Shown here in pieces: positions 37,474 to 60,023 of a DNA stretch of 64,000 nucleotides. Under the pieces are notes generated by a model. That model made no database searches. It worked only from the letters and a program-made list of their open reading frames with translations, and was not told the origin of the DNA. A program made the translations under genes and the position numbers. Positions within the stretch are counted from its first letter, which is position 1, and each line of letters opens with the position of its first letter. Source of the stretch: Caulobacteraceae bacterium (GTDB lineage: Bacteria > Pseudomonadota > Alphaproteobacteria > Caulobacterales > Caulobacteraceae); assembly GCA_003164925.1 (NCBI GenBank), contig PLRV01000010.1, forward strand, positions 116,332 to 180,331, in the 5' to 3' direction.

Positions 37474-37496
37474 ATTCCTATTAAGTTAGTAGGTAA
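37474..37496 (+). promoter_or_regulatory. palindromic operator, ATTCCTA-N9-TAGGAAT type (site 1)
   Basis: ATTCCTA-TTAAGTTAG-TAGGTAA, 73 bases before the FAD/NAD(P)-binding protein gene. It is the least perfect of five sites (right half TAGGTAA) but keeps the exact 9-base spacer. Confidence 0.55.
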
Positions 37497-37569
37497 TACC
37501 CGGCGGGCGAACACGGGCGGGCGATTCCCGTCGCTGCTGCTCAGGCCTGACCGGATTTGGGAAGCCGAC

Positions 37570-38937
37570 ATGACCACAGTAGTGATCGTCGGAGGTGGGT
37601 TCAGCGGCCTTTTGACCGCCATTCATCTGCTGCGGTCCAGTCCGGACCTATGTGTGCGCCTGTTCGACCGTTCGGCTCAATTCGGCCGGGGACGGGCCTA
37701 TTCCACCACGAACGAGCGCCATCTGCTGAACGTGCGAACGGGCAATATGAGCGCCTTTCCCGATCAGCCGGGCCATTTCCAGGCTTGGCTTGCGGCGCAG
37801 GCCCTCAGCGCCGGCCCGCAGGATTTCGTCAGCCGTGGACTTTATGGGATCTATCTGCAGGTCCAGTTACGGGACGCCCTGGCGTCTTTCGCTTCGGGCC
37901 GGTTCATCCTGGAAGCCGACGAGGTCGTGATCCTTCGCCCGGCCCCCTCCGGAGGATGGGTGCTGGCCAGCCGAAAGGGCCGGCAGTTTGCTGCGGACGC
38001 CATCGTCCTCGCGGTCGGCCTCATGCCGCCGCACGCCCTGCCAGGGGCGTCTGACCGGCTGCTGCGATCCCGCGGCGCCTATTTCTCCGATCCATGGTCG
38101 AGGAATCTACAGGAAGTCCCGGCCGGGGATGTGCTGCTCGTCGGGTCTGGACTCACCATGGTCGACGTCGCGTTGGAGCTGGCTCGTCGGGGCCGTCGTT
38201 TGGCGGCCATTTCCAGGCGTGGTCTGCTCCCCCGCAGCCATGCGTCCACGGCGGCTGTCTTGACGCCCCGCGGCGACCTTGGCTCACCCCTGGAGGCGCT
38301 CCGGACGATGCGGCGCCATGCGAAGGCGGTTGGCTGGCGCGATGCCGTCGACAGTATCCGCCCCGTGACTCAGACGATCTGGCGCGATTGGCCGCTCAAG
38401 GAGCGCCGTCGCTTTCTGCGGCATCTACGGCCCTGGTGGGACGTGCACCGGCACAGGATGGCGCCGGCCGTAACCGCCGAGATCCACAGTCTGATGGCCG
38501 CTGGGGGCCTGACGGTGACGGCGGGCAGGATACTCAGCCTGGATCTGGACGAGGACGGCGCGGTGATCCTCCGTTTTCGGGAGAAAGGGGAGTCTGCACT
38601 GCGGCAACGGCGTTTCGCCGCCGTGATCAACTGCACCGGCCCGCACGGCGACTTGGCCGTTGCGGATAGCCCACTACTGGCAGACCTGCGCCTGCAGGGT
38701 CTCGTGCGCAACGACCCACTGTCGCTTGGCCTCGACGTGGACGAACACGGCCGGGCCCTGGGGCGGAACGGCCGCTCGGTCGCCGGCCTGTTTGTTGTCG
38801 GCCCCCTGACTCGGGGCGCCGTCTGGGAATCCATGGCGGTCCCGGATCTGCGCAACCAAGCCGCCCAAGCGGCCGCCTGCCTTGCCGCCGATCTGGGCGC
38901 GACGCTCGGTGGCTGTAGGACGGCCGCCGGCGCTTGA
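37570..38937 (+). CDS. FAD/NAD(P)-binding oxidoreductase
   Basis: 455 residues. The N-terminal FAD-binding motif is VVIVGGGFSGLLTAIHLL, and GRAYSTTNERHLLNVRTGNM is typical of the NAD_binding_9 group. A second dinucleotide motif, DVLLVGSGLTMVDVALELAR, lies near residue 190. Conserved late segments are NCTGPHGDLAVADSPLL and VGPLTRGAVWESMAVPDLRN. Members often accompany sulfonate and organosulfur genes and may supply electrons to monooxygenases, but the reaction is not established. It is preceded by palindromic operator site 1. It is convergent with metY, with 30 bases between the stops. Confidence 0.75.
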   Translation: MTTVVIVGGGFSGLLTAIHLLRSSPDLCVRLFDRSAQFGRGRAYSTTNERHLLNVRTGNMSAFPDQPGHFQAWLAAQALSAGPQDFVSRGLYGIYLQVQLRDALASFASGRFILEADEVVILRPAPSGGWVLASRKGRQFAADAIVLAVGLMPPHALPGASDRLLRSRGAYFSDPWSRNLQEVPAGDVLLVGSGLTMVDVALELARRGRRLAAISRRGLLPRSHASTAAVLTPRGDLGSPLEALRTMRRHAKAVGWRDAVDSIRPVTQTIWRDWPLKERRRFLRHLRPWWDVHRHRMAPAVTAEIHSLMAAGGLTVTAGRILSLDLDEDGAVILRFREKGESALRQRRFAAVINCTGPHGDLAVADSPLLADLRLQGLVRNDPLSLGLDVDEHGRALGRNGRSVAGLFVVGPLTRGAVWESMAVPDLRNQAAQAAACLAADLGATLGGCRTAAGA

Positions 38938-38967
38938 GGCGGATCGCGCAAGCTAGGCGCGGCGTGG

Positions 38968-40281
38968 TCAGGCCGCTTGGGCCAGTTTGCCTGCGGCTGT
39001 AAGGGCCTGCTCCAAATCGGCGAGAATGTCGTCGATGTGCTCGATGCCCACCGACAGGCGCACATAGCTGTCCGACACGCCGCTGGCCAGTTGCTCGTCC
39101 GCAGTGAGTTGCGAATGGGTGGTGGTGGCCGGATGGATGGCCAGGCTGCGTGCATCGCCGATATTGGCCACGTGATAGAACAGCTTCAGGCTGTCGATGA
39201 ACCGGCGCCCCGCTTCGCGCCCCGCCGCCAATTCGAATCCGACCAGCCCGCCGTAACCGCCGGTCAGGTAACGGTCGGCCCGTTCGCGGGCCGGGCCGTG
39301 CTGCCTGGAGGGATGGATCACCTTCACCACCTCAGGGCGCGCCGCGAGGAAGTCGGCTACCGCCTGGGCGTTGCGCGAGTGTTCGGCGATGCGCAGGGGT
39401 AGGGTCTCCAGACCCTGCAGGATCTGGAAGGCGTTGAAGGGCGACAGGGCCGCGCCCAAATCGCGCAGCAACACAACCCGCGCGCGGATGATGTAGGCGA
39501 TTGGGCCGAGCGGCTTGACCGCTTCAGTCCAGATCGCGCCGTGATAGCTGGGGTCGGGGATGTTCAGCGCCGGCTGGCGCTCCGGATGGGCTTCCCAATC
39601 GAAATTGCCACCATCGACGATCAGGCCGCCGATCGACGTGCCGTGGCCGCCAATATATTTGGTGGCTGAATAGACGACGATGGCAGCGCCGTGATCGAGC
39701 GGGCGGGTGAGCAGGGGCGCGGCCGTATTGTCGACGATGAGCGGAATGCCGAATTCGCGCCCGATCTGGGCCACCTCGGCGATGGGGAACACGGTCAGCT
39801 TCGGGTTGGGCAGGGTCTCGGCGTAATAGGCGCGGGTGCGATCATCCGTGGCGCGGCGGAAGGCCTCCGGATCCGCCGGGTCTACAAAGCGGACCTCAAT
39901 GCCCTGATCGCGCAGGGTGTTGGCGAACAGGTTCCAGGTTCCGCCGTAAAGATCGGTCGAGCTGACGATATTGTCGCCGGCCCGAGCGAGGTTCTGCACC
40001 GCGAAGGCTGAGGCCGCCTGGCCGGAGGCCACGGCCAGGGCGGCCGCTCCGCCTTCCAGGGCGGCGATGCGTTGTTCCAGGATGTCGGTCGTGGGGTTGC
40101 CGATGCGCGTGTAGACATTGCCCAGTTCCTTCAGGGCGAACAGGTTGGCGGCGTGTTCGGTGTCGCGGAACTGGTAGGAGGTCGTCTGGTAGATCGGCGG
40201 CGCCACCGAGCCCGTCGCCGGATCGGCCCGCCAGCCCGCGTGCAGGGCCAGGGTCTGCGGGTGGAGGGCTCGCTCGCTCAT
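38968..40281 (-). CDS. metY: O-acetylhomoserine sulfhydrylase (aminocarboxypropyltransferase)
   Basis: 437 residues. A PLP-dependent Cys/Met-metabolism enzyme: ALHAGWRADPATGSVAPPIY at the start, the TTSYQFRDTEHAANLFALKE insert typical of MetY, and the PLP lysine in VVYSATKYIGGHGTSIGG. The C-terminus has SLAIHPATTTHSQLTADEQ and VRLSVGIEHIDDILADLEQA. It condenses sulfide (or methanethiol) with O-acetylhomoserine to homocysteine (or methionine), assimilating the sulfur released by the neighbouring desulfonation genes. Operator site 2 lies 63 bases upstream. AAAGGAAAG precedes the ATG. Confidence 0.93.
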   Translation of the reverse strand: MSERALHPQTLALHAGWRADPATGSVAPPIYQTTSYQFRDTEHAANLFALKELGNVYTRIGNPTTDILEQRIAALEGGAAALAVASGQAASAFAVQNLARAGDNIVSSTDLYGGTWNLFANTLRDQGIEVRFVDPADPEAFRRATDDRTRAYYAETLPNPKLTVFPIAEVAQIGREFGIPLIVDNTAAPLLTRPLDHGAAIVVYSATKYIGGHGTSIGGLIVDGGNFDWEAHPERQPALNIPDPSYHGAIWTEAVKPLGPIAYIIRARVVLLRDLGAALSPFNAFQILQGLETLPLRIAEHSRNAQAVADFLAARPEVVKVIHPSRQHGPARERADRYLTGGYGGLVGFELAAGREAGRRFIDSLKLFYHVANIGDARSLAIHPATTTHSQLTADEQLASGVSDSYVRLSVGIEHIDDILADLEQALTAAGKLAQAA

Positions 40282-40343: not shown

Positions 40344-40366
40344 AAACCTATCAATTCGATAGGAAT
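40344..40366 (-). promoter_or_regulatory. palindromic operator (site 2), upstream of metY
   Basis: AAACCTA-TCAATTCGA-TAGGAAT on the plus strand. The inner CCTATC/GATAGG arms are perfect. It lies between the ssuB stop and the metY start and so serves metY. Confidence 0.65.
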
Positions 40367-40414: not shown

Positions 40415-41164
40415 TCAGGCCGCGCTCTGCTCGACCGCGACGCCCTCGAGCAGGCTCAGGGCCTGGCCCTCCAGCAAGGCAAGCGCCGGATCGCGCCGAT
40501 CGCGCGGGTGGGGGATGTCCACCCGCACCTGTCCCCTCAGGCGGCCGGGACCGCTGGCCAGGACGATGACCCGGTCGCTCAAATAAACGGCCTCGCCGAC
40601 ATCGTGGGTCACCAGCAGCACGGTGGCGTCATGCCGGGCCGCGATGGCCTTGAGCAGGTCCTGCAGGCGCATGCGGGTGAAGGCGTCCACCGCGCTGAAC
40701 GGCTCATCCAGCAGCAGCAGGCGCGGCCGACTGAACAGGCCGCGGGCGATGGCCGCCCGTTGCGCCTGACCGCCGGACAGCTGCTTGGGATAGGCGTTGG
40801 CATGATCGGCCAGACCGACCTCGGCCAGAAGCTCGGCGACGCGCGGGTGGCGCGCCCCCTTGGCGCCCAGCTCGAAGCCGACGTTCTGGGCCACGGTCAG
40901 CCACGGTAAAAGGCGCGGCTCCTGGAACACCAAGCCGACCTCATCCAGATGCAGGCGCGGCGCATGGCCAAGCACGCTCGCCTGGCCGTCATAGTCGCTG
41001 TCCAGCCCGGCGATGATGCGCAGCAAGGTGCTCTTGCCGCAGCCGCTGGGGCCCACCAGGCTGACCACCTCGCCCTGGACCACCTGGAAGGCGACGTCAG
41101 CGATGACCGTCTTCTCGGCGAAGCGCTTTTCGGTGATCGACAGGTCGATGAGGGGCTGTGTCAT
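40415..41164 (-). CDS. ssuB: sulfonate/taurine-type ABC importer, ATP-binding protein
   Basis: 249 residues. Walker A VGPSGCGKSTLLR at about residues 38-50, Q-loop VFQEPRLLPW, signature LSGGQAQRAAIARGL, Walker B RLLLLDEPFSAVD and H-loop LLVTHDVGEAV. Wording and length fit the SsuB/TauB group. It energises import of the sulfonate captured by the SsuA-like protein; it is the last gene of the long minus-strand operon, four bases after the permease gene. Confidence 0.9.
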   Translation of the reverse strand: MTQPLIDLSITEKRFAEKTVIADVAFQVVQGEVVSLVGPSGCGKSTLLRIIAGLDSDYDGQASVLGHAPRLHLDEVGLVFQEPRLLPWLTVAQNVGFELGAKGARHPRVAELLAEVGLADHANAYPKQLSGGQAQRAAIARGLFSRPRLLLLDEPFSAVDAFTRMRLQDLLKAIAARHDATVLLVTHDVGEAVYLSDRVIVLASGPGRLRGQVRVDIPHPRDRRDPALALLEGQALSLLEGVAVEQSAA

Positions 41165-41167
41165 GGG

Positions 41168-42031
41168 TCAGGCGCCGATGGTCTTGTAGACGTCGCGCCA
41201 GCGCAGCAACCGGCGCTCCAGCCAGGCCAGGCCGCTGTCGCTGAGCTTGCCCAGCAATGCCAGGGCCAGGATGGCGACGATCACCTCGTCGGCGCGGCCG
41301 GTTTCGCGCCCATCGCTCAACAGATAGCCCAGGCCCTTGGTGGCGGCGATCAGCTCGGCAGCGACCAGGAACATCCAGGCCAGGGACAGGCCCGTTCGCA
41401 GACCGACGAACAGCGAGGGCAGGGCGGCCGGCAGGAAGATGCGCCGGATCAGGACGCCGCCCTTCAGCCCATAGACCTGGCCGAGCTCCACCAGTTTTCG
41501 ATCGACGTTGTGTATGCCCGACACCAGGCCGGCATAGACCGGGAAGAAGGCGCCGATGGCGATCAGCACAATCTTGGGCGTCTCGTCTATGCCCAGCCAC
41601 AGCAGCAGCAGAGGGACCCAGGCCAGCGAGGGAATGGCGCGCAGGCCCTGAAAGGTCGGACCGATCAGGGCCTCGGCCTTGGCGGAAAGGCCGACCACGG
41701 CGCCGGCTGCGACGCCCAGCGCGGCGCCGATCGAAAAGCCAGCCAGCACCCGCAGGCTGGACACCAGCATGTGCCCTTGCAGCTCCCCGTCCGCGAGCAG
41801 TTCGCGCACCGTCGCGACCAGGGCGCTGGGCGGCGGGAGAAGATTGGCCGGGACAAGTCCGCCGCGAACCACCGCTTCCCAAATGACCAGCAGAACCGCA
41901 GGAACAATGAGGCCGCGGCCGCGCGCGGCCACATCCGCCAGCCGTCCGGACGCGCGCGGGCCGGTGTCGCTCGGCGCTCGCGCTCGGCGCTGTTCGGCCG
42001 CCACGGGGTGCGAGGAGACGACCTCGGTCAC
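41168..42031 (-). CDS. ssuC: sulfonate ABC importer, permease
   Basis: 287 residues from a GTG, two bases past the ssuA stop. An Ala/Arg-rich N-terminus precedes about six membrane helices. The EAA loop region is GQVYGLKGGVLIRRIFLPAA, and IPSLAWVPLLLLWLGIDETP is a signature of SsuC/TauC permeases. It forms the inner-membrane channel with SsuB. The very basic first 30 residues are longer than in E. coli SsuC. Confidence 0.9.
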   Translation of the reverse strand: MTEVVSSHPVAAEQRRARAPSDTGPRASGRLADVAARGRGLIVPAVLLVIWEAVVRGGLVPANLLPPPSALVATVRELLADGELQGHMLVSSLRVLAGFSIGAALGVAAGAVVGLSAKAEALIGPTFQGLRAIPSLAWVPLLLLWLGIDETPKIVLIAIGAFFPVYAGLVSGIHNVDRKLVELGQVYGLKGGVLIRRIFLPAALPSLFVGLRTGLSLAWMFLVAAELIAATKGLGYLLSDGRETGRADEVIVAILALALLGKLSDSGLAWLERRLLRWRDVYKTIGA

Positions 42032-42033: not shown

Positions 42034-43017
42034 TCAGCGGACCACGGCGCGGGCGAAGGAGGGATCGATCAGGTCGTCGACGGCCTTGTTGACGTCGGCG
42101 CCTGGCTTGACCAGCGCTTCCTCGGTGAGGATCGGCGCGGTGGCTTTCAGCGCCTTGATCTGTTCGGGGCCTGGAATGGGGTGGCTGAAGTCGTTGCGGC
42201 TGAGTTGGAGGCGCGCCACATCGATAGAGACTCCCGCCTCCTGGGACAGAAGCCTGGCCGCTTCATCGGGGTTGGCGATGATCCAGCGCCGCGCGCGCTC
42301 GTACAGTCCGATCACCTGGCGGACATCGCCGGGGTAACGCTGGGCGAAGGAGTCGGAGACGTTCAGCACGCCATAGGTGTTGTAGGCGACGTTGCGGTAG
42401 ATGATCCGCGATCCGGCCTGCAGCTGGGAGGCCGCCATCAACGGATCAAGTCCGGCCCAGGCGTCCACCTGACCCCGCTCCAGGGCGGTGCGCCCGTCGG
42501 CGTGCTGCAGGCTCACCAGTTCGATGTCGGTTTTGGACAGACCATGATCGCGCAGGGCGCGTAGCAGGAACAGGTAGGGGTCGGTGCCTTTAGCGGCGGC
42601 AACCTTCCTGCCCCTGAGGTCGTTCACCGAACGGATGGGCGAATTCTTGGGCACCACGAGGGCCGTCCATTCAGGACGGGAATAGATGTAGACGGCCTTG
42701 ACCGGATTACCGTTGGCCCGGCTTAGCACTGACGCCAGTCCGGCGGTCGAGCCAAAATCCAGGCTGTTGCTGTTCAGGTATTCCAGGGCGCGATTGGAGC
42801 CGGTGCTGAGCACCCACTTCACGGTCACGCCCTGGACGCCATAGGCCTGTTCGGCCCAGCTGAAATGCTTGAGCACCAGGCTTGTCGGCGAATAGTAAGC
42901 GTAATCGAGCCGGATTTCCTTGGGATGTTCGGCGGCGAAGGCCGGCGCGGCCAGAAGGGCGGCCATGGCGGCCCATACCGTCCGCCGGCTCAGGCTTGGT
43001 GCGGATGGCTTGTTCAT
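42034..43017 (-). CDS. ssuA: sulfonate ABC importer, substrate-binding protein
   Basis: 327 residues from ATG 43017 (signal peptide RRTVWAAMAALLAAPAFA, cleavage before AEHPKE). The NMT1/SsuA-like fold shows DYAYYSPTSLVLKHFSWAEQ, VKWVLSTGSNRALEYLNSNS, GSTAGLASVLSRANG and KVAAAKGTDPYLFLLRALRD. It captures an aliphatic or aromatic sulfonate (or sulfonate-like acid) in the periplasm and delivers it to SsuC. It lies 11 bases after the DszC/SfnB-like gene. The actual ligand may differ from alkanesulfonates, given the DszC-like neighbour. Confidence 0.88.
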   Translation of the reverse strand: MNKPSAPSLSRRTVWAAMAALLAAPAFAAEHPKEIRLDYAYYSPTSLVLKHFSWAEQAYGVQGVTVKWVLSTGSNRALEYLNSNSLDFGSTAGLASVLSRANGNPVKAVYIYSRPEWTALVVPKNSPIRSVNDLRGRKVAAAKGTDPYLFLLRALRDHGLSKTDIELVSLQHADGRTALERGQVDAWAGLDPLMAASQLQAGSRIIYRNVAYNTYGVLNVSDSFAQRYPGDVRQVIGLYERARRWIIANPDEAARLLSQEAGVSIDVARLQLSRNDFSHPIPGPEQIKALKATAPILTEEALVKPGADVNKAVDDLIDPSFARAVVR

Positions 43018-43028: not shown

Positions 43029-44240
43029 TCAGGAATAGAAGGACGGTGTCGGCAGGCGCCCGTTCAGGCGCCAATCGCCCAACTCATGCAGTTTGTAGTC
43101 CAGCGGGTCATGCAGGGTGTGGGTGCGGGCGTTGCGCCAGAAGCGATCCAGCCGCAGCTTGCCGGCGGTGGCGCGAGCACCGAGCACCTCGAACATGCGG
43201 CTGGACACCTCCAGCGCGGCGCGGGCGCTGGCCACCTTGGCGGTTGCGACCGCGATGGCGACCTTGCCGCGCAGCGTCTGGTCGACCCGATCTCCGAGGT
43301 CGAATGCATCCTGGAATTGCCGCCGAGCCTGATCGGTCAGGGCCCCGGCGCCGGCGGTCTGCACCCAGTACTCGCCGAAATTGCGCAGGATATAGGGATC
43401 GTCGCCGACCTTTTCCGACTTGGATGCGATCCAGGGGGCCGCCTGGGGGTCGATGGAATGCGCCGCACAGGCCAGGGTGCCTTCAGCAATCCCCAGATAG
43501 ATGTGGGTCAAGATCAACTGGCCGAGCGTCGAGCGCAGGCTGGCGAACGGCGAGCCCAGGGGGCCGGGGTCGCGAAGGATCTCGCTATCCAGCACGACCA
43601 CGTCGCGGAAGGACACGCGGCCGCTGTCGGTTTGGCGCTGGCCGATATTATCCCAATCGTCATGCACGGTGACGCCATCGCGGTCGGTGGGGATCGCCGC
43701 CACCACCAGACCTTCCCGACCGGGCCGCAATGCCGAAACGATCAGCATGTCGGAGTCGCTCGCGCCCGAGCAGAAGCTCTTGGTTCCGTTGATGCGGTAG
43801 TCGCCCACGTCGGGGCCGGGCGTGAGGAACGTGGTTTTGTCCAAGGGATTTAGGGCGTTGCCCCAGAACCAGCGGTTTCGGGCCGTCAGCTCCAGCAGCG
43901 GCGCCCACTGCGGGCGTGGCGTGTAGAACCGCAAGGTCGCCAACTGGAAATGGTGGAAGGCGAACAGGTGGGCCAGGGCGCTGTCCACAGCCGCTATCTG
44001 CCGGGTGACATCCAGGGCGTCGGCGAGATCGCCGCCCAGCCCACCCAGATCGGCGGGGATGGTAAGGGCCAGCAGGCCGCTGGCGCGGAACAGGTCGCGC
44101 TCATGCTTGGCCGTGCCGCCGGCCTTGTCGCGAGCCGCTGCGGTGGCGTCCAGTTGGGAGATCAACTCTGCCAGGGCGGCGCGATCGTACGGCGCCAGCG
44201 GAGCCGGCGCAGGGCGCGAAAAGGCGAGGATATCAGGCAT
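43029..44240 (-). CDS. DszC/SfnB-family flavin-dependent sulfur-acquisition monooxygenase
   Basis: 403 residues with an acyl-CoA-dehydrogenase fold. The N-terminal half has GLLALTIPADLGGLGGDLAD and DSALAHLFAFHHFQLATLRF. The flavin region is NGTKSFCSGASDSDMLIVSA with DDWDNIGQRQTDSGRVSFRD. The C-terminal RFWRNARTHTLHDPLDYKLH is the hallmark of the DszC/SfnB subgroup. Members use reduced FMN and O2 to oxygenate sulfur in dibenzothiophene, sulfones or related organosulfur compounds. It overlaps the amidohydrolase-fold gene by eight bases. No flavin reductase is in the operon, so FMNH2 must come from elsewhere. Confidence 0.87.
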   Translation of the reverse strand: MPDILAFSRPAPAPLAPYDRAALAELISQLDATAAARDKAGGTAKHERDLFRASGLLALTIPADLGGLGGDLADALDVTRQIAAVDSALAHLFAFHHFQLATLRFYTPRPQWAPLLELTARNRWFWGNALNPLDKTTFLTPGPDVGDYRINGTKSFCSGASDSDMLIVSALRPGREGLVVAAIPTDRDGVTVHDDWDNIGQRQTDSGRVSFRDVVVLDSEILRDPGPLGSPFASLRSTLGQLILTHIYLGIAEGTLACAAHSIDPQAAPWIASKSEKVGDDPYILRNFGEYWVQTAGAGALTDQARRQFQDAFDLGDRVDQTLRGKVAIAVATAKVASARAALEVSSRMFEVLGARATAGKLRLDRFWRNARTHTLHDPLDYKLHELGDWRLNGRLPTPSFYS

Positions 44241-45105
44241 GACGAACCAAGGCCTCCGATTGCAGGCCCAACACGCGTTCGGCGTTCTTGTGCAGGATCA
44301 GGTCCAGCACCTCGTCCTTCCAGCCGAGAGCCAGGAAGTCATCGACCGTCTGCTTCATGGCGCGGAACGGATAAGAGGTGCCGAACAATAGCTGGTCGCG
44401 AAGGAAGCCGTTGCCCGCCTCCACATAGAGGCCGCCGCCAGGTGCGAAGAGGTACATGTCCGGCACGATGAAGACATTGGCGTGCTTGAAGGCCACGCCG
44501 ATGATCTCGTTCACATAGGGCCAGAAGCCGTGGAAGCAGACGATCTTCAGGTCCGGGAAGGTCGCCGCTACGCGCCCGACCGGCGCGGGATCGGTATATT
44601 CCAGGGACGGCGAAGTCGGGCCCGACATGAGGAACACCGGCGCGCCGAGCGCCTGGCAGGCCTCGTAGACCGGAAACAGCACCGGATGATCCGGCTTGAG
44701 CGGCGGGGCGCCGAAGCCGGGTTCTATATTGATGCCCGCAAGCCCGTAGGACCTCACCGCGCGCTCGATCTCCGTCGTGATGACCCGGGGCGATTGGGTC
44801 TGGGGATTGACCGAGCCGACACCGATCAACTCGTGATGGCGAGACACCAGGTCACGGATTTCTTCATTGGAGTGCTTGAGCTGGGGGGTGTCGCGCCCGA
44901 CCACCACGGCCTGAGAAATGCCGGCGTCGCGCACTTCCTGGACAAAGGCCTCCAGGGTCTTGGACTTGGCGAAATGCTCGTCGTCCTTGGAGCCCGTGCG
45001 CCGGTTAATCCAGCGCGCCGTCTCATAAGCCTTGGTGCCCGGCGTCGCCCCGTAGAAGTCGTGCAGAAACGAGGGGCGACTGCGCAGGTCGATGATCTTG
45101 CTCAT
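44233..45105 (-). CDS. amidohydrolase_2-like TIM-barrel protein without N-terminal HxH
   Basis: 290 residues. Overall outline of the ACMSD-like amidohydrolase_2 family: SVNPQTQSP, GLAGINIEPGFGAPP, FPVYEACQALGAPVFLMSG, FPDLKIVCFHGFWPYVNEII, QLLFGTSYPFRAMKQTVDDF and a final ILHKNAERVLGL. The first strand reads IIDLRSRPSFL where metal-binding members have HxH, and the late GSDxP Asp is GTSYP, so two classical metal ligands are missing. A central His (FHG) remains. It may be a metal-free hydrolase or lyase, perhaps cleaving the oxygenated organosulfur intermediate made by its neighbours. Function is inferred from context only. Confidence 0.72.
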   Translation of the reverse strand: MSKIIDLRSRPSFLHDFYGATPGTKAYETARWINRRTGSKDDEHFAKSKTLEAFVQEVRDAGISQAVVVGRDTPQLKHSNEEIRDLVSRHHELIGVGSVNPQTQSPRVITTEIERAVRSYGLAGINIEPGFGAPPLKPDHPVLFPVYEACQALGAPVFLMSGPTSPSLEYTDPAPVGRVAATFPDLKIVCFHGFWPYVNEIIGVAFKHANVFIVPDMYLFAPGGGLYVEAGNGFLRDQLLFGTSYPFRAMKQTVDDFLALGWKDEVLDLILHKNAERVLGLQSEALVRHA

Positions 45106-45119: not shown

Positions 45120-46253
45120 TCAGCTTTGCGCGGCGTTGCGGATGGCCGCGTCGAACGGGCCGCCAGTGAAGTTCACCTCATCGGTGAACTCACGTCTCTG
45201 GCCCGGCAGCAACGGGAACAGGTATTCGGCCACGCGATAGGCTTCCTCCAGGTGCGGGTAGCCGGACAGGACAAAGGTCTCGATGCCCAGATCGGCGTAT
45301 TCCTTGATCCTGGCCGCCACAGTCTCGGGGTCGCCGACCAGAGCCGTGCCCGCCCCGCCGCGCACCAGGCCCACGCCCGCCCAAAGGTTGGGAGCGATCT
45401 CCAGCTTGTCTCGGCTTCCTTTATGCAGGGCCGCCATCCGCTGCTGGCCCACCGAGTCCATCTTGGCCTGATTGGCCTGGGCGCGGGCGATGGTCACCTC
45501 GTCGAGCCGGCTGATCAGGTCGTCGGCCGCGGCCCAGGCCTCCTTCTCGGTCTCGCGCACGATGATGTGCAGCCGTACGCCGAAGCGCACTGTGCGGCCG
45601 AGCTCGGCGGCGCGGGCCTTCACATCCGCGATCTTTTCCGCGACCGCCGCGGGCGGTTCGCCCCAGGTCAGGTAGAGATCGACATGCTTGGCGGCAAGCG
45701 CGTGCGAGGCCGGCGAGGAGCCGCCGAAGAAGATCGGCGGGTGCGGCTTTTGCAATGCGGGCAAGACCAGCTTGCCGTTCTTGATCTTGAGGTGTTTGCC
45801 GTCGTGGTTGACCGTTTCCCCGGCGAGCAGTCCCTTCCAGATGTCGAGGAACTCGTCGGCCTGGGCGAAACGCTCGTCATGCTCAAGGAACACCCCGTCC
45901 GCCGCGAGCTCCGCCGCGTCGCCGCCCGGAACAATATTGATCTGCAGGCGACCGCCTGAGGCGCGATCCACCGAAGCGGCCATGCGCGCGGCGACCGCCG
46001 GCAAGAGCAGGCTGGGCCGGAAGGCGACCAACAGGTTCAGATATTTGGTCTGCGACGCCAGGGCGGCGGCGGTGACCCATGGATCCTCGCAACCCGCGCC
46101 GGTCGGGATCAGAATCCCGTCGTAGCCGAGCGTGTCGGCGGCCACCGCGACCTGGCTCAGATAGTCGCCATCCGTGAACCGGCCGAATTTGGATCGTCCG
46201 AGATAGCGGCTGTCGCCGGATGTCGGCAAAAACCAGTAGATATCGAGGCTCAT
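45120..46253 (-). CDS. ssuD: FMNH2-dependent alkanesulfonate monooxygenase
   Basis: 377 residues of the bacterial-luciferase-like TIM barrel. SsuD landmarks are all visible: [14 protein letters not shown] at the start, Cys55 in [46 protein letters not shown] carrying the catalytic Arg/His pair, and [12 protein letters not shown] with the late Tyr. It cleaves the C-S bond of sulfonates to aldehyde and sulfite with FMNH2 and O2. It begins 55 bases after the DUF6644 gene and 14 bases before the amidohydrolase-fold gene. No ssuE-type reductase is present. Confidence 0.92.
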
Positions 46254-46308: not shown

Positions 46309-46779
46309 TCAGATGAACCCGATCACACGGCCGGCCACGCCCACGCCGAACCACAGGCTGAGGGAGGCGACCGCAATGGCCTTCTGTGCGGCCAGGACGG
46401 GCGCCTTGGGCCGGGTCATCTGGCGAAACAGGACCGCCTGGGTGGCTAGAGCCAGCGCCAGCAGGCCCATTTTCCACCAGAAGGCTTCGTTGAAGAAGCA
46501 CTTGAGCGGCTCGCCGACGAACAGGCAGGTTCCTGTGAACACGGCCACGATCAGGCCAATCGAGAACGCCGGCGCCAGGGACGAGGCCACGGCCGAAGCG
46601 CTCTGCCGCCGAAGCGTCACGCCCAGCAGTCGCAAATCCAGCGCCAGCACCACGCCCAGCAGCAAGCTGAGACCCAGCAGGTGCAGCACCTCGACCACCG
46701 GAAAGAAGTAGGTCGATTTGGCGATCGCCACGCCCACCGGCGTCTTGGCGACCCATTCGAAAATAGGAAGCAGGCTCAT
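46309..46779 (-). CDS. DUF6644-like four-helix membrane protein
   Basis: 156 residues with four hydrophobic helices: [20 protein letters not shown], a [14 protein letters not shown] segment, [18 protein letters not shown] and [20 protein letters not shown]. The [26 protein letters not shown] beginning, with a His in helix one, is typical of DUF6644, a family of unknown function that may bind haem or act as a small integral subunit. Its ATG overlaps the stop of the second DUF6644 gene (ATGA), so the two are made together and probably pair in the inner membrane. Confidence 0.75.
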
Positions 46780-48253: not shown

Positions 48254-48272
48254 GGCTTCCGTCGCAACACGA

Positions 48273-49025: not shown

Positions 49026-49028
49026 GGC

Positions 49029-49471: not shown

Positions 49472-51667
49472 TCAGAAGAAGGCGTGGGTGAGGCCGATGG
49501 AGAAGTTGCGGGTCTCGCCGGGCGAGAACACCGCGCTGGCGGCTGTGCCCAAGGCGGTGGTCGAGGTGGCCGCCACATAGTGGGCGTCGCCCAAGTTGTC
49601 GCCCTGAGCGAACACTTCCCACTTCTTGTCCGGGGAGCGATATCCGATCCGGGCGCCGTAGATGAGGTAGGATGGGACGTAGAGCTGATTGTAGAAGTCG
49701 ACCGGGTAGTGAACGAAGACTGATTCAGTCGTCAGGCTGGCGTAAAATCCAGAGCGGTCCACATAGTTCAACTCGCCCTGATACACATCCTCCGGCACGG
49801 CCGGGATTTCGTTGTTGTGGTACACTGGGTCGTTGACGAACTGGAAGTGGTCCACCGTCAGGGCCGAGCGCCACACCAACGAGCTGCCGTCCGAACGCCA
49901 CAGGGTGACGTCCAGCGTTCCTTCCAGCCCCTCGTGGGTCGTGGGACTCGCCGAGTTGCTGGTGATGGTCACGGGGTTGGAAACGTTGGGATTGCCGACG
50001 ACCTGCGTCAGAATTTCGTGCTGCACATAGGTGTGGAAGACGGCCGCATCCCATTTGAAGATGCCGACTTCGCCGCGAACGCCCGCCTCCAAATTCTGCT
50101 GAGTCTGATTGCGGATGTAGTTGTTGCTGCTGTCGACACTCTCCTTGAGGCCGCCGGAGCCTGGGATCGACAGGCTGGCGGTGACGGGCAACTGGTGCGC
50201 GATCGGCGCTTCGTCCGAACCGCTGTAGTTGCCGTAGATCTGCAGATGCGGGGTGAAGTCGTAGCGTAGGCCGACGCGGGGCGTGACCGTGTTGAAGTTC
50301 TCGGTCTCGTCCGCCGTGGTTCTCAAGACGAAGTTCTGGATATTGCTGACCCGCTGCTGCCAGATCGAGGCTAGGCCGGTGGTCAGCCAGAAGCCGTGGG
50401 CGATCTCAAGGTCATCCTTGAGCAGGAGCGTGCTGTCGTAACCGCCGAAGGTGGCCTTGTACAAGGTGGTCGGCGTGGCGGCCGTGTGCGGGCCGATGTA
50501 CAGGCCGCGGTTGGTGGAGTCCGGAAGAATGCCGGCATAGACCCAGGCCGCCTCGCTGTTGCTCTGCAGGCCGCCGAGCACCTGATCGCTGCGCTTGTAG
50601 CGTGCGGTGATCGCCAGGTCCTTGACGTCCCAGTCGCCGGGGGTGAAGCCGCCGCCCTCGTTGCGTAGCGGGAAGTTCTTGTACAGGAACCCGCCTTCGA
50701 TATCGGAATTGGGGGTGACGTTGTAGGTCGAATAGTCGCCCAGGATGGTCGAGCCCTTTTCCCGGCGCATGGATTGCTCGGTCTGGCCCGTGGCGCCGGT
50801 GAAGGTCTGCGGCGTTTTGGTGTAGGTGCTCTGGTTCGGGTCCTGCTCGACTTGGGACAGAGTCAGGCTGGTGGCGCTGCGGGTGTTCTGCTGGGCGTAT
50901 TCGAAGAGTGCGCGCGTCTTGAAATCGGTCGTGGGCTGATAGCCGACGTCGCCGACCAGCCGCTGGCTGTAGGAGCCGTTGCCGTCGCGGAAGCCGTCGG
51001 ACCCGAAGTGGGTGGCGGAGACGTAGTAGTCCAGCGGGCCTGACACCCCGCCGGAGCTGACCTGTTCGCGATTGTAGCCGTAGCTGCCCGCTTCCACCCG
51101 CGCGAGCAGCGGCGTGGAATCGTAGCCGGTGTGCGCCACGAAGTTGATCGCGCCGCCCTGGGTGCTGGGCGAAAATTCGAAGGCGTTCGCGCCGGGATAG
51201 ACCTCGGTATAGTTGTTGCTCAGGGATTCATAATATTCGAACGGGCTGCCTTCCGGCGTGGTCAGGGTCAGGCCGTTGAACAGGAACTGGATGCCCGTGC
51301 CCCACGATCCCGCGGCGCGGATGATGCCCGACCCGCGCATGGAGAAGCGCGTGGCCTCTTCACCCGTAGCCGACTGAGCCAGCAGGCCAGGCTGGAAGCG
51401 CAGCACGTCGGCGATGGTCGCCGCGCGCCCCAACTCCACCCGGTCGGCGCTGATCACGGCGGTGTTGCCGGCGACATCGGTCAGGGTGGGGATGTGGTTG
51501 CGCTGAACGGTGACGACGACTTCGCTGGAGGCCGCGTCCGTAGCAGCGGCTGTGCTGGTCGTGGCGGCCGTGGCGTCGGCCGTGGCGTCCGCCGCGTGCG
51601 CGGCGACGCCCACGCCCAGAGCCGAGATCATGGCTGCCGAAAACACGGTATTTTTCCAGATATTCAT
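49472..51667 (-). CDS. TonB-dependent outer-membrane receptor heading the organosulfur operon
   Basis: 731 residues. The signal peptide is NTVFSAAMISALGVGVAAHA; an Ala/Thr-rich linker and TonB-box-like SEVVVTVQRN follow. The plug has IADVLRFQPGLLAQSATGEE and RFSMRGSGI, and the barrel ends RNFSIGLTHAFF. Its plug (GLLAQSATGEEATR...RGSG, EYYESLSNN, FEFSPSTQGGAINFVAHTGY) is shared with the receptors at 54638 and 57696 but not with those at 6636 and 32607, so two receptor subfamilies are present. It is the first gene of an apparent 12-gene operon ending at ssuB, so it probably imports an organosulfur compound. Operator site 3 lies upstream. Confidence 0.92.
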   Translation of the reverse strand: MNIWKNTVFSAAMISALGVGVAAHAADATADATAATTSTAAATDAASSEVVVTVQRNHIPTLTDVAGNTAVISADRVELGRAATIADVLRFQPGLLAQSATGEEATRFSMRGSGIIRAAGSWGTGIQFLFNGLTLTTPEGSPFEYYESLSNNYTEVYPGANAFEFSPSTQGGAINFVAHTGYDSTPLLARVEAGSYGYNREQVSSGGVSGPLDYYVSATHFGSDGFRDGNGSYSQRLVGDVGYQPTTDFKTRALFEYAQQNTRSATSLTLSQVEQDPNQSTYTKTPQTFTGATGQTEQSMRREKGSTILGDYSTYNVTPNSDIEGGFLYKNFPLRNEGGGFTPGDWDVKDLAITARYKRSDQVLGGLQSNSEAAWVYAGILPDSTNRGLYIGPHTAATPTTLYKATFGGYDSTLLLKDDLEIAHGFWLTTGLASIWQQRVSNIQNFVLRTTADETENFNTVTPRVGLRYDFTPHLQIYGNYSGSDEAPIAHQLPVTASLSIPGSGGLKESVDSSNNYIRNQTQQNLEAGVRGEVGIFKWDAAVFHTYVQHEILTQVVGNPNVSNPVTITSNSASPTTHEGLEGTLDVTLWRSDGSSLVWRSALTVDHFQFVNDPVYHNNEIPAVPEDVYQGELNYVDRSGFYASLTTESVFVHYPVDFYNQLYVPSYLIYGARIGYRSPDKKWEVFAQGDNLGDAHYVAATSTTALGTAASAVFSPGETRNFSIGLTHAFF

Positions 51668-51984: not shown

Positions 51985-52007
51985 AATCCTATCGAATTAA
52001 TAGGAAT
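51985..52007. promoter_or_regulatory. palindromic operator (site 3) between TonB receptor and msrC
   Basis: AATCCTA-TCGAATTAA-TAGGAAT with the exact 9-base spacer. It is 91 bases before the msrC ATG and 318 bases before the receptor start, so it may serve one or both divergent units. A second short inverted repeat TATCGC/GCGATA follows at 52020-52039. The rest of 51668-52097 shows no gene. Confidence 0.65.
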
Positions 52008-52097: not shown

Positions 52098-52607
52098 ATG
52101 GAGCCTTCGATGTCTGCATCACGCCTGTCACCCATGCCCATCCAAGACAAGCGCGTCCGTTACGTGGAGGTCGCAGGCGAGATCGCCGCGGTGCTCGAAG
52201 GCGAGCGGGATAGGACCGCGCGGATGGCCACGGTGGCCGCCCTGCTGCGCGAGGCTTTCGAGCACTTTTTCTGGGTCGGCTTTTACGTGGTGGACCGGGC
52301 CAACCCGCATGAGTTGGTGGTTGGTCCCTACCAAGGCACGCTGGGCTGTTTGCGCATCGCCTTCGGACGTGGGGTTTGCGGCGCCGCGGCCTTGACCGGT
52401 CAGATTCAGATCGTGCCCGATGTCCACGCTTTCGAAGGCCATATCGCCTGCGACAGCCGCTCGCAAAGCGAGATTGTGGTCCCCGTGTTCGACGCTTCCG
52501 GCGCCTTGATCGCCGTGCTGGACGTGGACGCGGTGCATAAGGCGGCTTTTGACGCGGTGGATGGCGAAGGCCTGGACGCCATCCTCAAGGCGACCTTTTC
52601 CATCTGA
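52098..52607 (+). CDS. msrC: free methionine-(R)-sulfoxide reductase (GAF domain)
   Basis: 169 residues. A single GAF domain carries the three redox cysteines at positions 84, 94 and 118 (TLGCLRIAFGRGVCGAAA and HIACDSRSQSEIVVPVF), the same numbers as in E. coli fRMsr. VGPYQGTLGC and IVPDVHAFEGHIACDS are diagnostic. It reduces free Met-R-sulfoxide to methionine with thioredoxin. A start at ATG 52110 is also possible. Divergent from the receptor-led organosulfur operon and sharing operator site 3, it adds a sulfur-salvage or oxidative-repair step. Its 3' end is three bases from the convergent mini-TetR gene. Confidence 0.93.
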   Translation: MEPSMSASRLSPMPIQDKRVRYVEVAGEIAAVLEGERDRTARMATVAALLREAFEHFFWVGFYVVDRANPHELVVGPYQGTLGCLRIAFGRGVCGAAALTGQIQIVPDVHAFEGHIACDSRSQSEIVVPVFDASGALIAVLDVDAVHKAAFDAVDGEGLDAILKATFSI

Positions 52608-54637: not shown

Positions 54638-56764
54638 TCAGAAGGCGTAGCTCGCCCCCGCCGTGATGGTGCGCCCCTCGCCCGGCGTGTAGACAGCCGC
54701 GCTGGGGGTCCACAGGCCGGTGGTGGAGGTGAAGGAGACGTAGTTCACGCCGCCGAGGTTTTGGCCCTCGACGAACACGCGCCATTTCTTGTGAGGCTCG
54801 ACATAGCCGATGGAGGCGCCGGCCAGGGCGTAGGCCGGAGCCGTGCCGGCGTTGGCGAAGTCGACCGGGTAGGAATCCACGGCCTGCACATTGGCGCTGA
54901 CGTAGAGGCCGGAGGCGTGGTTGAAGGTCAACTCGGCCTGGTAGGTCTGCTTGGGAAGACCGGGCAGGACCTTCTGTTCGGGCCCCTGTTGGGCGAAATA
55001 GAAATGACCCCAGGCGTAGGACTGACGCAGGGTCAGCTCGCTTCCCTGATCCTTCCACAGCGTGGCGTCCAGCGAAGCTTCCACGCCCTCATGCACCGTC
55101 GGCCGCGCATTCTCGGTGTAGGAGATCCCGTTGGGGTTCTTGGGGTCGACCCCCGGCAGCACGGCGTAGGTGGTCAGCAGCTCGTCGCGGACCTGCTCGT
55201 TGTAATAGTCCACATCCCATTTGAACCGGTCGGTCTGACCCTTCACGCCAATCTCCGACGAAATGCCGGACTGCACCTTCAGATTTCGGGTGTTCAAGAC
55301 GTAGGAGACGCCGTTGGAGACGGTGGGGGTGGTGACGTAGCCGGTGTAGGCGCTGTTGAGCGACTGGGCGAAACTGCCGATCTGCGGCGCCTCGACCAGG
55401 CGACTGACGTTGGCGTAGGCCTGGATCCGCGGCGTGACGGCGTAGCGCAGGCCCACGCGCGGCGTGAAGGTTTGATAGGTCTTGTTCAAATCGGGATTTA
55501 CCCCGGCGGGCAGGGGATTGGTGATCTGGTTCTGGCGATTGAGCCAAAGGCCAGCGATCCCGGTCGTCAGCCAAAGCTTGGAGGTCACGGCGAAGTCGTT
55601 GCTTGCCAGCAGCGTATTGTTCGAGCCGCCGTATTTGATCGATCCCAGGTAGGTGCTCGGGGTCGTCAGGGTGTTGTAAGTCGACAGCTGCGAGCCGGCC
55701 AGGACGTAGGAGGGCAGGAAGGCGACGGTGGTGTCGCTCTCGTGGCCCCCGAACAGCACGTCCTGGCGCTTGTACTTGACCAGGCCCGACACATCGCTGG
55801 TGTCCCAGAACGAGCGTGCGCTGGGCGCGCTGTCGTGGATCGGCGGCTTTTGATATTCGATGCCGACTTCCAGGGTCGATTTGCCGTCGATGACATAGAC
55901 GGTCTTGTCGGCGACGACGTATGTCCCGGGATTGATGCGGTCGCCGATGACCCCGATGTTGGCCCGCGCATTGGCTTCAAAATTGGCCAGGGTGACCGAG
56001 TTGATGTGCTGCTGGGTCTGGTCGGCGTATTCGAAATAGAATCGGGTGCTCAGATCGGGGGTAAACTTGTAGCCGAAGTTCGACACCAGCCGGTTGCTGA
56101 ACCCCGCCGAGTCCGACAGGTAGCCGGTCGAATTATAGTGGTTCAGGCTGATGTAGTAGTCGAACGGCCCGATCACCTGGCCTGAACTAACCTGCTCGCG
56201 CTGGTAGCCATAGCTTCCGCCCTCCGCGCGCACGAAGAGGGGGGAGGAGTCATATCCGGTGTGCTCAATGTAGTTGATCACGCCGCCCAAGGTGAAGGCG
56301 CCGTACTCAAAGCCGTTGTCGCCCTTGTAGACCTCGATGGCGTTGTAGGCGTTGGGTTCATAGGCTTCGTAGGGATTGCCGTAGGGCGTGCTGAGCGGCA
56401 GGCCGTCCAACAGGACCTGGATGCCGCTGCCCCAGGTGAAGCCGCCCTTGCCGGCGCCGGAGCCGCGTATCGACAGGCGCGTGCCTTCGCCTCCCTGCAC
56501 CGACTGGGCGAATAGCCCCGGAACGAAAGCCAGGGCGTCGGCGGTGTTGGCGATGCTCTGCGCTTGCAGATTGGCGGTGGAAATCACGGCCGTGCCGCCA
56601 GGGACGGCGTCAAGCGTGGGCGTGGTTTCTCGCTTGGCCGTTACGACGACGCTGTCAGACCCCCTCGCCGCATCCGCGTCCACCGTGTCGGCCCGGGCCA
56701 CCCCTGCGGCCATCGACAAGCCGATGAGCGCCGCTGACGCCGCCAGTCCGTATGTGCTGCTCAC
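54638..56764 (-). CDS. TonB-dependent outer-membrane receptor
   Basis: 708 residues from a GTG (VSSTYGLAASAALIGLSMAA) preceded by AGGAGGG; the ATG-less start agrees with the related receptor at 57696. TonB-box-like DSVVVTAKRE, plug with VISTANLQAQSIANTADALA, FVPGLFAQSVQGGEGTRLSI, GSGIQVLLDGLPLSTPYGNP and IEVYKGDNGFEYGAFTLGGV. The barrel ends RTITAGASYAF. Same subfamily as the receptors at 49472 and 57696. Operator site 4, the most perfect palindrome, lies about 100 bases upstream. Ligand unknown, probably an organosulfur compound from context. Confidence 0.92.
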   Translation of the reverse strand: MSSTYGLAASAALIGLSMAAGVARADTVDADAARGSDSVVVTAKRETTPTLDAVPGGTAVISTANLQAQSIANTADALAFVPGLFAQSVQGGEGTRLSIRGSGAGKGGFTWGSGIQVLLDGLPLSTPYGNPYEAYEPNAYNAIEVYKGDNGFEYGAFTLGGVINYIEHTGYDSSPLFVRAEGGSYGYQREQVSSGQVIGPFDYYISLNHYNSTGYLSDSAGFSNRLVSNFGYKFTPDLSTRFYFEYADQTQQHINSVTLANFEANARANIGVIGDRINPGTYVVADKTVYVIDGKSTLEVGIEYQKPPIHDSAPSARSFWDTSDVSGLVKYKRQDVLFGGHESDTTVAFLPSYVLAGSQLSTYNTLTTPSTYLGSIKYGGSNNTLLASNDFAVTSKLWLTTGIAGLWLNRQNQITNPLPAGVNPDLNKTYQTFTPRVGLRYAVTPRIQAYANVSRLVEAPQIGSFAQSLNSAYTGYVTTPTVSNGVSYVLNTRNLKVQSGISSEIGVKGQTDRFKWDVDYYNEQVRDELLTTYAVLPGVDPKNPNGISYTENARPTVHEGVEASLDATLWKDQGSELTLRQSYAWGHFYFAQQGPEQKVLPGLPKQTYQAELTFNHASGLYVSANVQAVDSYPVDFANAGTAPAYALAGASIGYVEPHKKWRVFVEGQNLGGVNYVSFTSTTGLWTPSAAVYTPGEGRTITAGASYAF

Positions 56765-56850: not shown

Positions 56851-56891
56851 ACGCACCTAATTCCTATCAAAATAGTAGGAATTAGGTGCGT
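56851..56891. promoter_or_regulatory. palindromic operator (site 4), extended 16-bp perfect arms
   Basis: The arms ACGCACCTAATTCCTA (56851-56866) and TAGGAATTAGGTGCGT (56876-56891) are exact complements around TCAAAATAG. The ATTCCTA-N9-TAGGAAT core equals the other sites. It lies 87 bases before the receptor GTG start. The rest of 56765-57095 carries an AT-rich stretch and the hairpin at 57027. Confidence 0.8.
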
Positions 56892-57060: not shown

Positions 57061-57095
57061 AGCATTTGGATTGAGATCGCGGGCCAGGATCGGTC

Positions 57096-57671: not shown

Positions 57672-57695
57672 GGGATGTTCCTCTGCTGCGATTGA

Positions 57696-59909
57696 TCAGA
57701 AGGCGTAGGACAGGCCGCCGGTGATGCTGCGCCCTTCGCCGGCGGTGAACACCGCCGAGGACGCCGTCGCCAAGCCGGTGGCGGAGGAGAAGGAGGCGTA
57801 TTTCGTGCCGCCCAGGTTCTCGCCATCCACGAAGACCCGCCACTTCTGCCCCGGAGGGGCGTAGCCGATGTTGGCGCCGACCAGGGTGTAGGACGGTGCG
57901 AAGGTCTTGTTGAAGTAGTCGACCGGGTAGGGAGAGGGCGAGGACTCGACGCTGAGGCCGGCATAGAAGCCGGACTCGTGGCGGTAGTTCAGGCCGGCCT
58001 GATAGAAATATTTGGGCAGGCCCGGCAGCACGCCATAGCCGGCGGCCACGTCTTCGTGCGCGAAATGGAAGTTGTTCCAGGTGAAGGCCTGGCGCAGCGT
58101 CACGGTGTTGACGCCGTCCTTCCACAATTCGGTGTCCACCGACGCCTCGACCCCCTCGTGCACGGTCGGCCGGGCGTTCTCGGTGTAGGAAACGCCGTTA
58201 GGAACCGCGGGATTGACGTTCGGAAGGAGGGCGTAAATCGTCAGCAGTTCGTCATGGATCTGTTCGTTGTAGTAGTCGATGTCCCACTTGAAGCGGTCAT
58301 ACTGACCCTTGACGCCGAACTCGTAGTTGGTCCCGACCTGCTCCTTCAGATTGGCTTCGTTGAACGTGAATCCCCCCGTCGGCGTGGTGATGAAGCCGTT
58401 GTAATAGCTGTTCGAGTAAGTGGTGGAGCCGATCTTTTCCGAGAAGGTCGCGGACTGGGCGTAGCTGATGATCTGCGGCGCTTCGACCAACTGACTGATA
58501 TTGCCGTAGGCCTGGATCTGCGGCGTGATGTCGTAACGCAGGCCAATCCGCGGCGTGTAGTTGATGTACGTCTTGTCCAGGCGGGGGTTTATGCCCGCCG
58601 CCACAGGAGAGTACGCGGGGTTCGCAGGCGTGTATTTGACCCCCGGACCAGCGGGGGGGACGACGGGGTTATCGATCTCGTTGGTGCGGGTCTCATAAAG
58701 CCAGCCGATGCCGGTCACCAACCACAGTTTCTGCGTCAGTTGCAGGTCGTTGGCGGCCAGGACGGTGGTGTTTGACCCGCCGTATTTGACAAAACCGGTG
58801 GTCAGGCCGGTCGCGTCGTTGCTGGCGTAGGCGCCCGATCCCGGCAGGACATAGCTCGGTAGGACCGACAAGGTCGTATTGCTCTCGTGGCCGCCGAACA
58901 CCTCGTCCTTGCGCTTATAGGTCAGCGATCCGGTCAGGTCGCTGGTGGCCCAGAAGGTGCGGCTGGGCTCGTTGCCGTTGTGCAGCGGCGGGTTCTTGTA
59001 GGCTAGACCGAACAGCAGGCTGGAGTTGTCGTCGATCTGCCAGTTGGTCTTGTTGGCCACGAAGATCGACCCCATGGTCACGCGCGCCCCGGTGTAGGCG
59101 TTCGTCTGGGGCGCGCCCAGTAGTTGGCTGAGCGTTTGGGAGGAGATGTTCTCTTCGTACTGGCGCGCGTCCTCGAAATAGAAGCGCGTGTTCAGTTGGG
59201 GTGTGACCTGATAGCCGACATTGCCGATAAAGCGGCCGGCGGTGGCTTCGGAATTCTGCAGATAGCCGGCGGTCTGGTAGTGGGTCGCAGTGACATAGTA
59301 GTCCCACGGCCCGATCACCTGGCCTGAGCTGATCTGCTCGCGCTGGTAGCCATAGCTGCCGGCCTCCAGCCTGATCGCCAGGGGCGAGGAGTCGTAGCCG
59401 GTGTGCTGCACCAGATTGATCGCCCCGCCCAGCTGGGTGGCGCCGAATTCAAAGGCGTTGGCGCCCTTGTAGACCTCGATCCGTTGGTAGGCGTTGGGTT
59501 CGAAGGACTCATAGGGCGTGCCCAGCGCGCCGCTGAGCGGCAGGCCGTCGAATAGTACGTCAACGCCGTTGCCCCAGGTGAAGCCGCCCTTGGTGACGCC
59601 CGACCCGCGGATCGACAGGCGCGTGGCTTCGCCGCCGCTGGCCGATTGCGCGAACAGGCCGGGCACGTATTTCAACGCGTCGTCCAGGTTGGCGATGCTG
59701 GTGGCCTGGATCTGGTCGGCGGTGATCAAGCCTGTGCCGCCGGGCACGACGGCCAGGGTCGGCGCTTCCACGCGCTTGGTGGTCACGACTATCTGATTTT
59801 GCGACGCAGTATCGGCAGCCGAGTCGGTATCGGCGGCGTAGGCCGTTCCTCCTGCGGCCAACACGGCGATCAAGGCGGCCGAAGCCGCCAGTTCCATTCT
59901 CAAACTCAC
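57696..59909 (-). CDS. TonB-dependent outer-membrane receptor
   Basis: 737 residues from GTG 59909, seven bases after GAGGGA; a TTG at 59924 in the same frame is less likely. The start VSLRMELAASAALIAVLAAG parallels the VSSTYGLAASAAL start of the receptor at 54638. TonB-box-like NQIVVTTKRV, plug YVPGLFAQSASGGEATRLSI, VDVLFDGLPLSGALGTPYES and IEVYKGANAFEFGATQLGGA, and a barrel ending RSITGGLSYAF. It shares long stretches with the receptor at 54638 (for example SGQVIGPWDYYVTATHYQTA). Operator site 5 lies 92 bases upstream. Ligand unknown; sulfur context. Confidence 0.92.
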   Translation of the reverse strand: MSLRMELAASAALIAVLAAGGTAYAADTDSAADTASQNQIVVTTKRVEAPTLAVVPGGTGLITADQIQATSIANLDDALKYVPGLFAQSASGGEATRLSIRGSGVTKGGFTWGNGVDVLFDGLPLSGALGTPYESFEPNAYQRIEVYKGANAFEFGATQLGGAINLVQHTGYDSSPLAIRLEAGSYGYQREQISSGQVIGPWDYYVTATHYQTAGYLQNSEATAGRFIGNVGYQVTPQLNTRFYFEDARQYEENISSQTLSQLLGAPQTNAYTGARVTMGSIFVANKTNWQIDDNSSLLFGLAYKNPPLHNGNEPSRTFWATSDLTGSLTYKRKDEVFGGHESNTTLSVLPSYVLPGSGAYASNDATGLTTGFVKYGGSNTTVLAANDLQLTQKLWLVTGIGWLYETRTNEIDNPVVPPAGPGVKYTPANPAYSPVAAGINPRLDKTYINYTPRIGLRYDITPQIQAYGNISQLVEAPQIISYAQSATFSEKIGSTTYSNSYYNGFITTPTGGFTFNEANLKEQVGTNYEFGVKGQYDRFKWDIDYYNEQIHDELLTIYALLPNVNPAVPNGVSYTENARPTVHEGVEASVDTELWKDGVNTVTLRQAFTWNNFHFAHEDVAAGYGVLPGLPKYFYQAGLNYRHESGFYAGLSVESSPSPYPVDYFNKTFAPSYTLVGANIGYAPPGQKWRVFVDGENLGGTKYASFSSATGLATASSAVFTAGEGRSITGGLSYAF

Positions 59910-60000
59910 GTTCTTATCCCTCAAGTTTTTGGCGCCTCACTGCGGGCGCCGCTATGGCGTCGGCCCGTTGTGCGCAGGCGATGCGCGTGGGCCGCCTGCA

Positions 60001-60023
60001 ATTCCTACTGAAATAATAGGAAT
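60001..60023. promoter_or_regulatory. palindromic operator (site 5), upstream of TonB receptor
   Basis: ATTCCTA-CTGAAATAA-TAGGAAT: perfect 7-bp arms with the 9-base spacer. It is followed by an AT-rich stretch (60025-60110) with no gene. Confidence 0.7.

Follow-up and report, generated by a model that had tools for sequence, protein, structure and literature searches.

Five copies of a palindrome with the consensus tWATTCCTAY-N7-RTAGGAATWa lie within 22.5 kb of a Caulobacteraceae genome, within a 64,000-nucleotide stretch of contig PLRV01000010.1 (hereafter the window; positions are counted from its first letter). This palindrome is probably the operator of a dimeric repressor of the Rrf2 family that would govern the scavenging of organosulfur compounds and sulfate, and a protein encoded on another contig of the same genome, C99, is the proposed reader. 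Our case is built from the motif, its conservation, the genes beside it, and its tie to Rrf2. An earlier note on this DNA had proposed that a single dimeric regulator controls a sulfur regulon, a model that is supported at the sequence level.

All five sites contain the core CCTA-N9-TAGG (Table 1). The earlier note had correctly reported nine spacer bases at each site and four of the five positions; that of the fourth, given as 56859, is 56860. Its statement that every site keeps 7-bp arms does not stand: counted against ATTCCTA-N9-TAGGAAT, sites 1 to 5 carry 2, 2, 1, 0, and 0 mismatches, and the arms are perfect only at 56860 and 60001. In shuffled versions of the window, the mean was 0.51 sites and the largest number 4, with five reached in none of 100 shuffles. 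No further copy occurs in the window at up to three mismatches, as had been claimed for the DNA outside 37.4 to 60.1 kb, and the sites do lie upstream of the FAD/NAD(P) (flavin adenine dinucleotide/nicotinamide adenine dinucleotide [phosphate]) gene, metY, the divergent msrC-like/TonB receptor pair, and two more receptors. Because their spacers and flanks are dissimilar, the five sites do not resemble copies of a single repeat. Only site 4 sits in a 41-bp palindrome (56851-56891) with 16-bp perfect arms, the outer parts of which are absent from the other sites.

We searched the whole 3.4-Mb genome with a sequence profile trained on 27 sites, five of them from the window. Of 210 first-look candidates 150 were scored, and the ten matches at E<=2 are the same five places on both strands. 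The pattern CCTAY-N7-RTAGGAAT also finds these five places only (reversed control, 0), while the bare core CCTA-N9-TAGG is not enriched (13 places versus 51 for the reversed control). Across 250 genomes of the family, the strict pattern occurs in 14 genomes versus 1 for its reversed control, and a looser pattern in 22 versus 25. Since the looser pattern is no commoner than its control, abundance alone proves little, and gene context and conservation carry the case. The profile search (30 candidates scored per genome, E<=0.06) placed the motif in 35 of the 250 genomes, at a sensitivity that missed 10 of 13 sites directly seen in one genus, g3. The palindromes are real.

To describe the genes beside the site in relatives, loci fetched by sequence alone were rescanned with a weight matrix at a threshold of 14 bits, leaving out those fetched by gene. 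Among the 56 sites that remain, a few of which are second sites within the same loci, 53 have a gene start within 400 bp; the median distance is 68 bp, and some sites are no more than 30 bp away from the start codon. Typing by Pfam and NCBIfam the 72 proteins that start within 250 bp of a site (divergent pairs count both genes, so some are bystanders) gave TonB plugs (12, of which 10 with the TonB barrel), FAD proteins (5), SsuC-type permeases (4), alkanesulfonate-monooxygenase-like proteins (3), O/P porins (3), LysR (3), sulfate-binding proteins (2), TauD (2), TauE (2), and Rrf2 (1). An equal number of control genes from the same loci, each 3 kb or more away from any site, gave TonB barrels, a transporter permease domain, and CysA, twice each; no FAD, TauD, TauE, or luciferase family appears among the first 25 control-gene families listed. 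In G244, one porin heads an operon that homology to the G118 sulfate-binding protein marks as a sulfate ATP-binding cassette (ABC) operon. The recurrence of sites upstream of sulfur uptake genes, unlike control genes, and their retention before the FAD gene and a TonB receptor gene bear out two expectations of the earlier note. These results support the view that the palindromes are switch sites of sulfur-scavenging genes, which form a predicted regulon. As separate observations, some of the best-scoring sites in genus g6 (L133, L135, L137, L138, L174, and L224) lie 23 to 45 bp before a dienelactone-hydrolase-family gene, and membrane dipeptidase (M19) genes carry a site in at least two genomes (L134 and L240).

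Which protein reads the site? The earlier note had proposed a test for co-occurrence with one regulator family, and here Rrf2 is favored: one class of Rrf2 proteins is present in 32 of the 35 motif genomes versus 125 of the 215 others (Fisher test, 5e-5, uncorrected for descent). This class occurs in 157 of the 250 family genomes at E<1e-25, with no best E-values between 1e-19 and 1e-28. The window genome has one member, a protein of 151 amino acids on contig C99 (G000:C99:14344-14787). It belongs to the Rrf2 superfamily (TIGR00738, 105.4 over a cutoff of 73.3; PF02082, over cutoff) and scores below the equivalog cutoffs for CymR (64.9 versus 195), IscR (58.4 versus 207.55), RirA (68.7 versus 193), and NsrR (56.9 versus 182); its closest solved structure is that of CymR (2y75). 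Members collected by their helix, RK[FY]LE[AS]I, have at least four cysteines in 35 of 35 sequences, and 31 of these have the exact spacing CX8CX2CX5C. A site also lies about 170 bp upstream of two Rrf2 genes, in L235 (25.4 bits) and L283 (16.2 bits). The operator itself speaks for an Rrf2 reader as well: its CC-N13-GG spacing equals that of the published C. crescentus IscR type II motif, and its 23 bp around a central 7 bp follow the layout of NsrR sites, IscR and NsrR both being Rrf2 proteins.

Genus g3, in which 17 of 56 genomes have this Rrf2, allows a direct comparison. At 49 percent identity or more there are 20 FAD homologs, and their promoters carry the site in 13 of 15 Rrf2-positive and 0 of 5 Rrf2-negative genomes (p=0.0014, an optimistic value since the genomes are related). 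For G171, the FAD gene match lacks its first part, the start being called too late, and the distance is inferred. The two Rrf2-positive genomes not counted as having the site are G246 and G151, and in G151 it is present with a spacer one base shorter. The ten more distant FAD homologs of the genus that were scanned, all from Rrf2-negative genomes, have no promoter site.

Several loci make it suggestive that the link between operator and Rrf2 extends beyond the family. One is in Niveispirillum cyanobacteriorum, where the gene of an Rrf2 protein with identical cysteine spacing is directly followed by the FAD gene, and a 24.8-bit site stands between the two. Azospirillum sp. TSH58 has weaker sites of 13.8 to 16.9 bits before the FAD gene, the next gene, and a binding-protein/TauD pair (named by eye). 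Overall, FAD-homolog loci on named plasmids have at least 14 bits before the gene in 4 of 13 cases (Niveispirillum and three Azospirillum, all Azospirillaceae). Starting instead from Rrf2 homologs, annotated sulfur genes stand beside Rrf2 in four of six fetched loci: sulfate ABC genes in Azospirillum thermophilum and Thioclava, sulfate/sulfonate ABC and TauD genes in Sinorhizobium americanum, and LLM/flavin reductase/FAD genes in Rhizobium sp. SL42. The A. lipoferum locus has no annotated sulfur genes adjoining Rrf2, and the sixth locus is without annotation. Azospirillum brasilense has an ortholog of the Rrf2 on its plasmid. The best profile position precedes a sulfur or FAD gene in A. thermophilum, Rhizobium, and Sinorhizobium (11 to 13 bits, versus 0.8 to 9.0 in three shuffles each), which is not the case in Thioclava.

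Other results weigh against an Rrf2 operator of sulfur genes. The strongest sites precede the dienelactone hydrolase gene (7 of the 72 proteins), which has no evident sulfur role. Outside the family, no site of at least 14 bits stands before the FAD gene in Sphingobium, Sphingomonas, Novosphingobium, Lichenicola, Paracoccus, or Methylomagnum, nor in R. leguminosarum, A. fabrum, or R. tropici, the last of which reaches 12.4 bits with shuffles up to 11.0. There is no site near the Rrf2 gene on C99, a contig that stops 1.1 kb upstream of it, and the neighbors of the gene, CBS-domain and CsgG-like (named by eye), include no evident sulfur gene. The 125 Rrf2-positive genomes without a site at E<=0.06 come from the search with known missed sites in g3. 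Conversely, three motif genomes lack the Rrf2: in G178 the contig stops at its expected place, and in G223 the neighbor gene was likewise not found. G161, which is assembled in 3 contigs and 99 percent complete, has a 36.8-bit site and neither the Rrf2 nor its neighbor gene, and remains a true exception.

We infer binding, repression, and a signal as follows. With sufficient sulfur, the repressor would occupy operators near the start codon and block transcription; when sulfur becomes limiting, it would release them, and the TonB receptors, the Ssu system, MetY, and the FAD protein would be made. The four conserved cysteines could hold an iron-sulfur cluster or sense thiols. A more ambitious and more doubtful idea, which we offer tentatively, is that this alphaproteobacterial Rrf2 class senses the supply of sulfur by means of a labile iron-sulfur cluster bound to CX8CX2CX5C. 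It might then be a main switch for the scavenging of taurine, sulfonate, and sulfate in bacteria ranging from this family to Azospirillum and rhizobia, where the outer bases of the operator would drift around a constant core, CTAY-N7-RTAG. No Rrf2 sulfur regulator of Alphaproteobacteria turned up among the top matches listed from the open-licence literature in PubMed Central. If the proposal is right, a regulator that is common but uncharacterized gains an operator, a set of targets, and a signal open to testing, and a probable role in sulfur acquisition can be given to the three TonB receptors, to several unassigned proteins, and to an FAD protein that is widespread.

Among other readers, IscR is the strongest contender, although an unlikely one. 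It would read the sites as a variant type II motif and thereby tie sulfur uptake to cluster demand. The CC-N13-GG spacing here equals that of the Caulobacter crescentus type II motif (PMC11475020), and both the window genome (C54) and G161, where a site occurs without the Rrf2 class discussed above, encode an IscR-like protein. However, the half-site is CCTA rather than CCAY, and IscR-like proteins occur in 14 of 14 genomes searched; therefore, IscR gives no account of why the FAD-promoter site in g3 tracks another Rrf2.

It is improbable that a LysR-type sulfonate regulator reads the site. LysR proteins bind the pattern T-N11-A, which CTA-N9-TAG fits, and in L222, L225, L232, and others, a LysR gene diverges from ssuC with the site between them. 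Yet a search of the window genome for this ssu-linked LysR gave no match at E<=1e-40, with 10 of 18 candidates scored, and the protein is present in only 10 of the 35 motif genomes at E<1e-80 (37 of 250 in the family overall), and we rejected it as the general reader. It may be a target or share ssu promoters. The genome encodes ten LysR domains over the cutoff and one below. One LysR gene (L142/L184, G000:C30) is divergent from a cysG-DUF2849-cysI-cysH-like operon, as named by eye; the intergenic stretch holds no motif copy, either by eye or in the genome profile search, and sulfate reduction in this genome may be run separately.

That no regulator is involved, and the sites reflect chance, base composition, or a spreading repeat, is very improbable. 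AT-rich words fall in intergenic DNA anyway, and neither the bare core nor the looser pattern used in the family is enriched over its reversed control, but the five sites differ in spacers and flanks, and the site is conserved before one gene in different genera and also outside the order. A TetR-like stub inside the island, with a TetR_N match, is hardly credible as the regulator, and we rejected it: it comprises only the DNA-binding part, and in a tblastn search of the fetched stretches it matched only the window's own genome, and no relative. Its reading frame and the stop of the minus-strand gene before it overlap.

The genes of the island are listed in Table 1. Gene names given in the earlier note are upheld for metY, SsuD, and the SsuA family, which score over their cutoffs; the DszC/SfnB-like protein falls below, and msrC is supported only as a GAF domain. 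A closely spaced minus-strand run begins with receptor 1 and ends with ssuB, including SsuD and the SsuA-family protein, a spacing from which the Ssu system may be under the control of site 3.

Table 1. Palindromic sites and genes of the island, in window coordinates
Feature	Position	Strand	Remark
Site 1, ATTCCTATTAAGTTAGTAGGTAA	37474..37496	no strand	2 mismatches; center 85 bp 5' of FAD/NAD(P) gene start
FAD/NAD(P)-binding protein	37570..38937	+	PF13454; homologs with site in L129, L176, L180, L181, Niveispirillum
metY, O-acetylhomoserine/O-acetylserine sulfhydrylase	38968..40281	-	TIGR01326, 596.9 over cutoff of 495.1
Site 2, AAACCTATCAATTCGATAGGAAT	40344..40366	no strand	2 mismatches; center 74 bp upstream of metY
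ssuB-like ABC ATPase	40415..41164	-	
ssuC-like ABC permease	41168..42031	-	
ssuA-like sulfonate-binding protein	42034..42966	-	TIGR01728, 253.9 over 163.5
DszC/SfnB-like flavin monooxygenase	43029..44240	-	below both equivalog cutoffs
Amidohydrolase	44233..45105	-	
ssuD, alkanesulfonate monooxygenase	45120..46253	-	TIGR03565, 584.7 over 518.2
Two DUF6644 proteins, two unassigned proteins, one DUF6152 protein	46309..49457	-	same minus-strand gene run
TonB-dependent receptor 1	49472..51667	-	head of minus-strand run to ssuB; homolog with site in G001, 57 percent
Site 3, AATCCTATCGAATTAATAGGAAT	51985..52007	no strand	1 mismatch; between TonB receptor 1 and GAF/msrC-like gene
GAF-domain protein (msrC-like)	52098..52607	+	msrC supported only at GAF-domain level
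TetR-like stub	52614-52835		about 73 amino acids, DNA-binding part only; TetR_N match
TonB-dependent receptor 2	54638..56764	-	
Site 4, perfect arms	56860..56882	no strand	upstream of TonB receptor 2
TonB-dependent receptor 3	57696..59897	-	
Site 5, perfect arms	60001..60023	no strand	center 115 bp 5' of receptor 3 ATG

A Methylophilaceae contig (L022, 300-12903) carries the same SsuABCD/SfnB-like/amidohydrolase/TonB/YHS/DUF6644 set as window positions 40415-59897, at 33 to 74 percent identity and without the operator. We therefore rejected import of the operator along with the gene cluster; the comparison suggests that the cluster moved by transfer and that the operator is of local origin. 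Among 80 loci fetched by the SfnB-like protein, none has the CCTAY-N7-RTAGG core.

Sulfonate and sulfate genes, the proposed targets of the candidate, are controlled elsewhere by the LysR-type regulators CysB, Cbl, and SsuR, which belong to another protein family. The other comparable systems are Rrf2 proteins. In PMC11475020, the C. crescentus IscR type II motif is given as TCCAYRHCHTCBNCRKGGD, with CC and GG 13 bases apart; the operator described here has the same spacing (CC-TAYN7RTA-GG), with CCTA in place of CCAY in the half-site. The IscR of this genome differs from the C99 candidate in its helix (SLAYLEQ versus PRKFLEA) and in its cysteine pattern. The site of Streptomyces coelicolor NsrR, as described in PMC9338935, spans 23 bp with 7 bp in the center, a layout matched here, whereas the candidate scores below the cutoffs of both NsrR and RirA and has a sulfur target context. 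CymR, the Rrf2-family cysteine metabolism repressor of Firmicutes, is the best structural match and resembles the candidate in having sulfur genes as targets, which for the latter are proposed. According to PMC9338935 and PMC2869319, Bacillus subtilis CymR acts in complex with CysK, and the former source adds that it binds no cluster. The candidate, far below the CymR cutoff, differs in its four conserved cysteines and in its proposed targets, which are uptake genes and TonB receptors.

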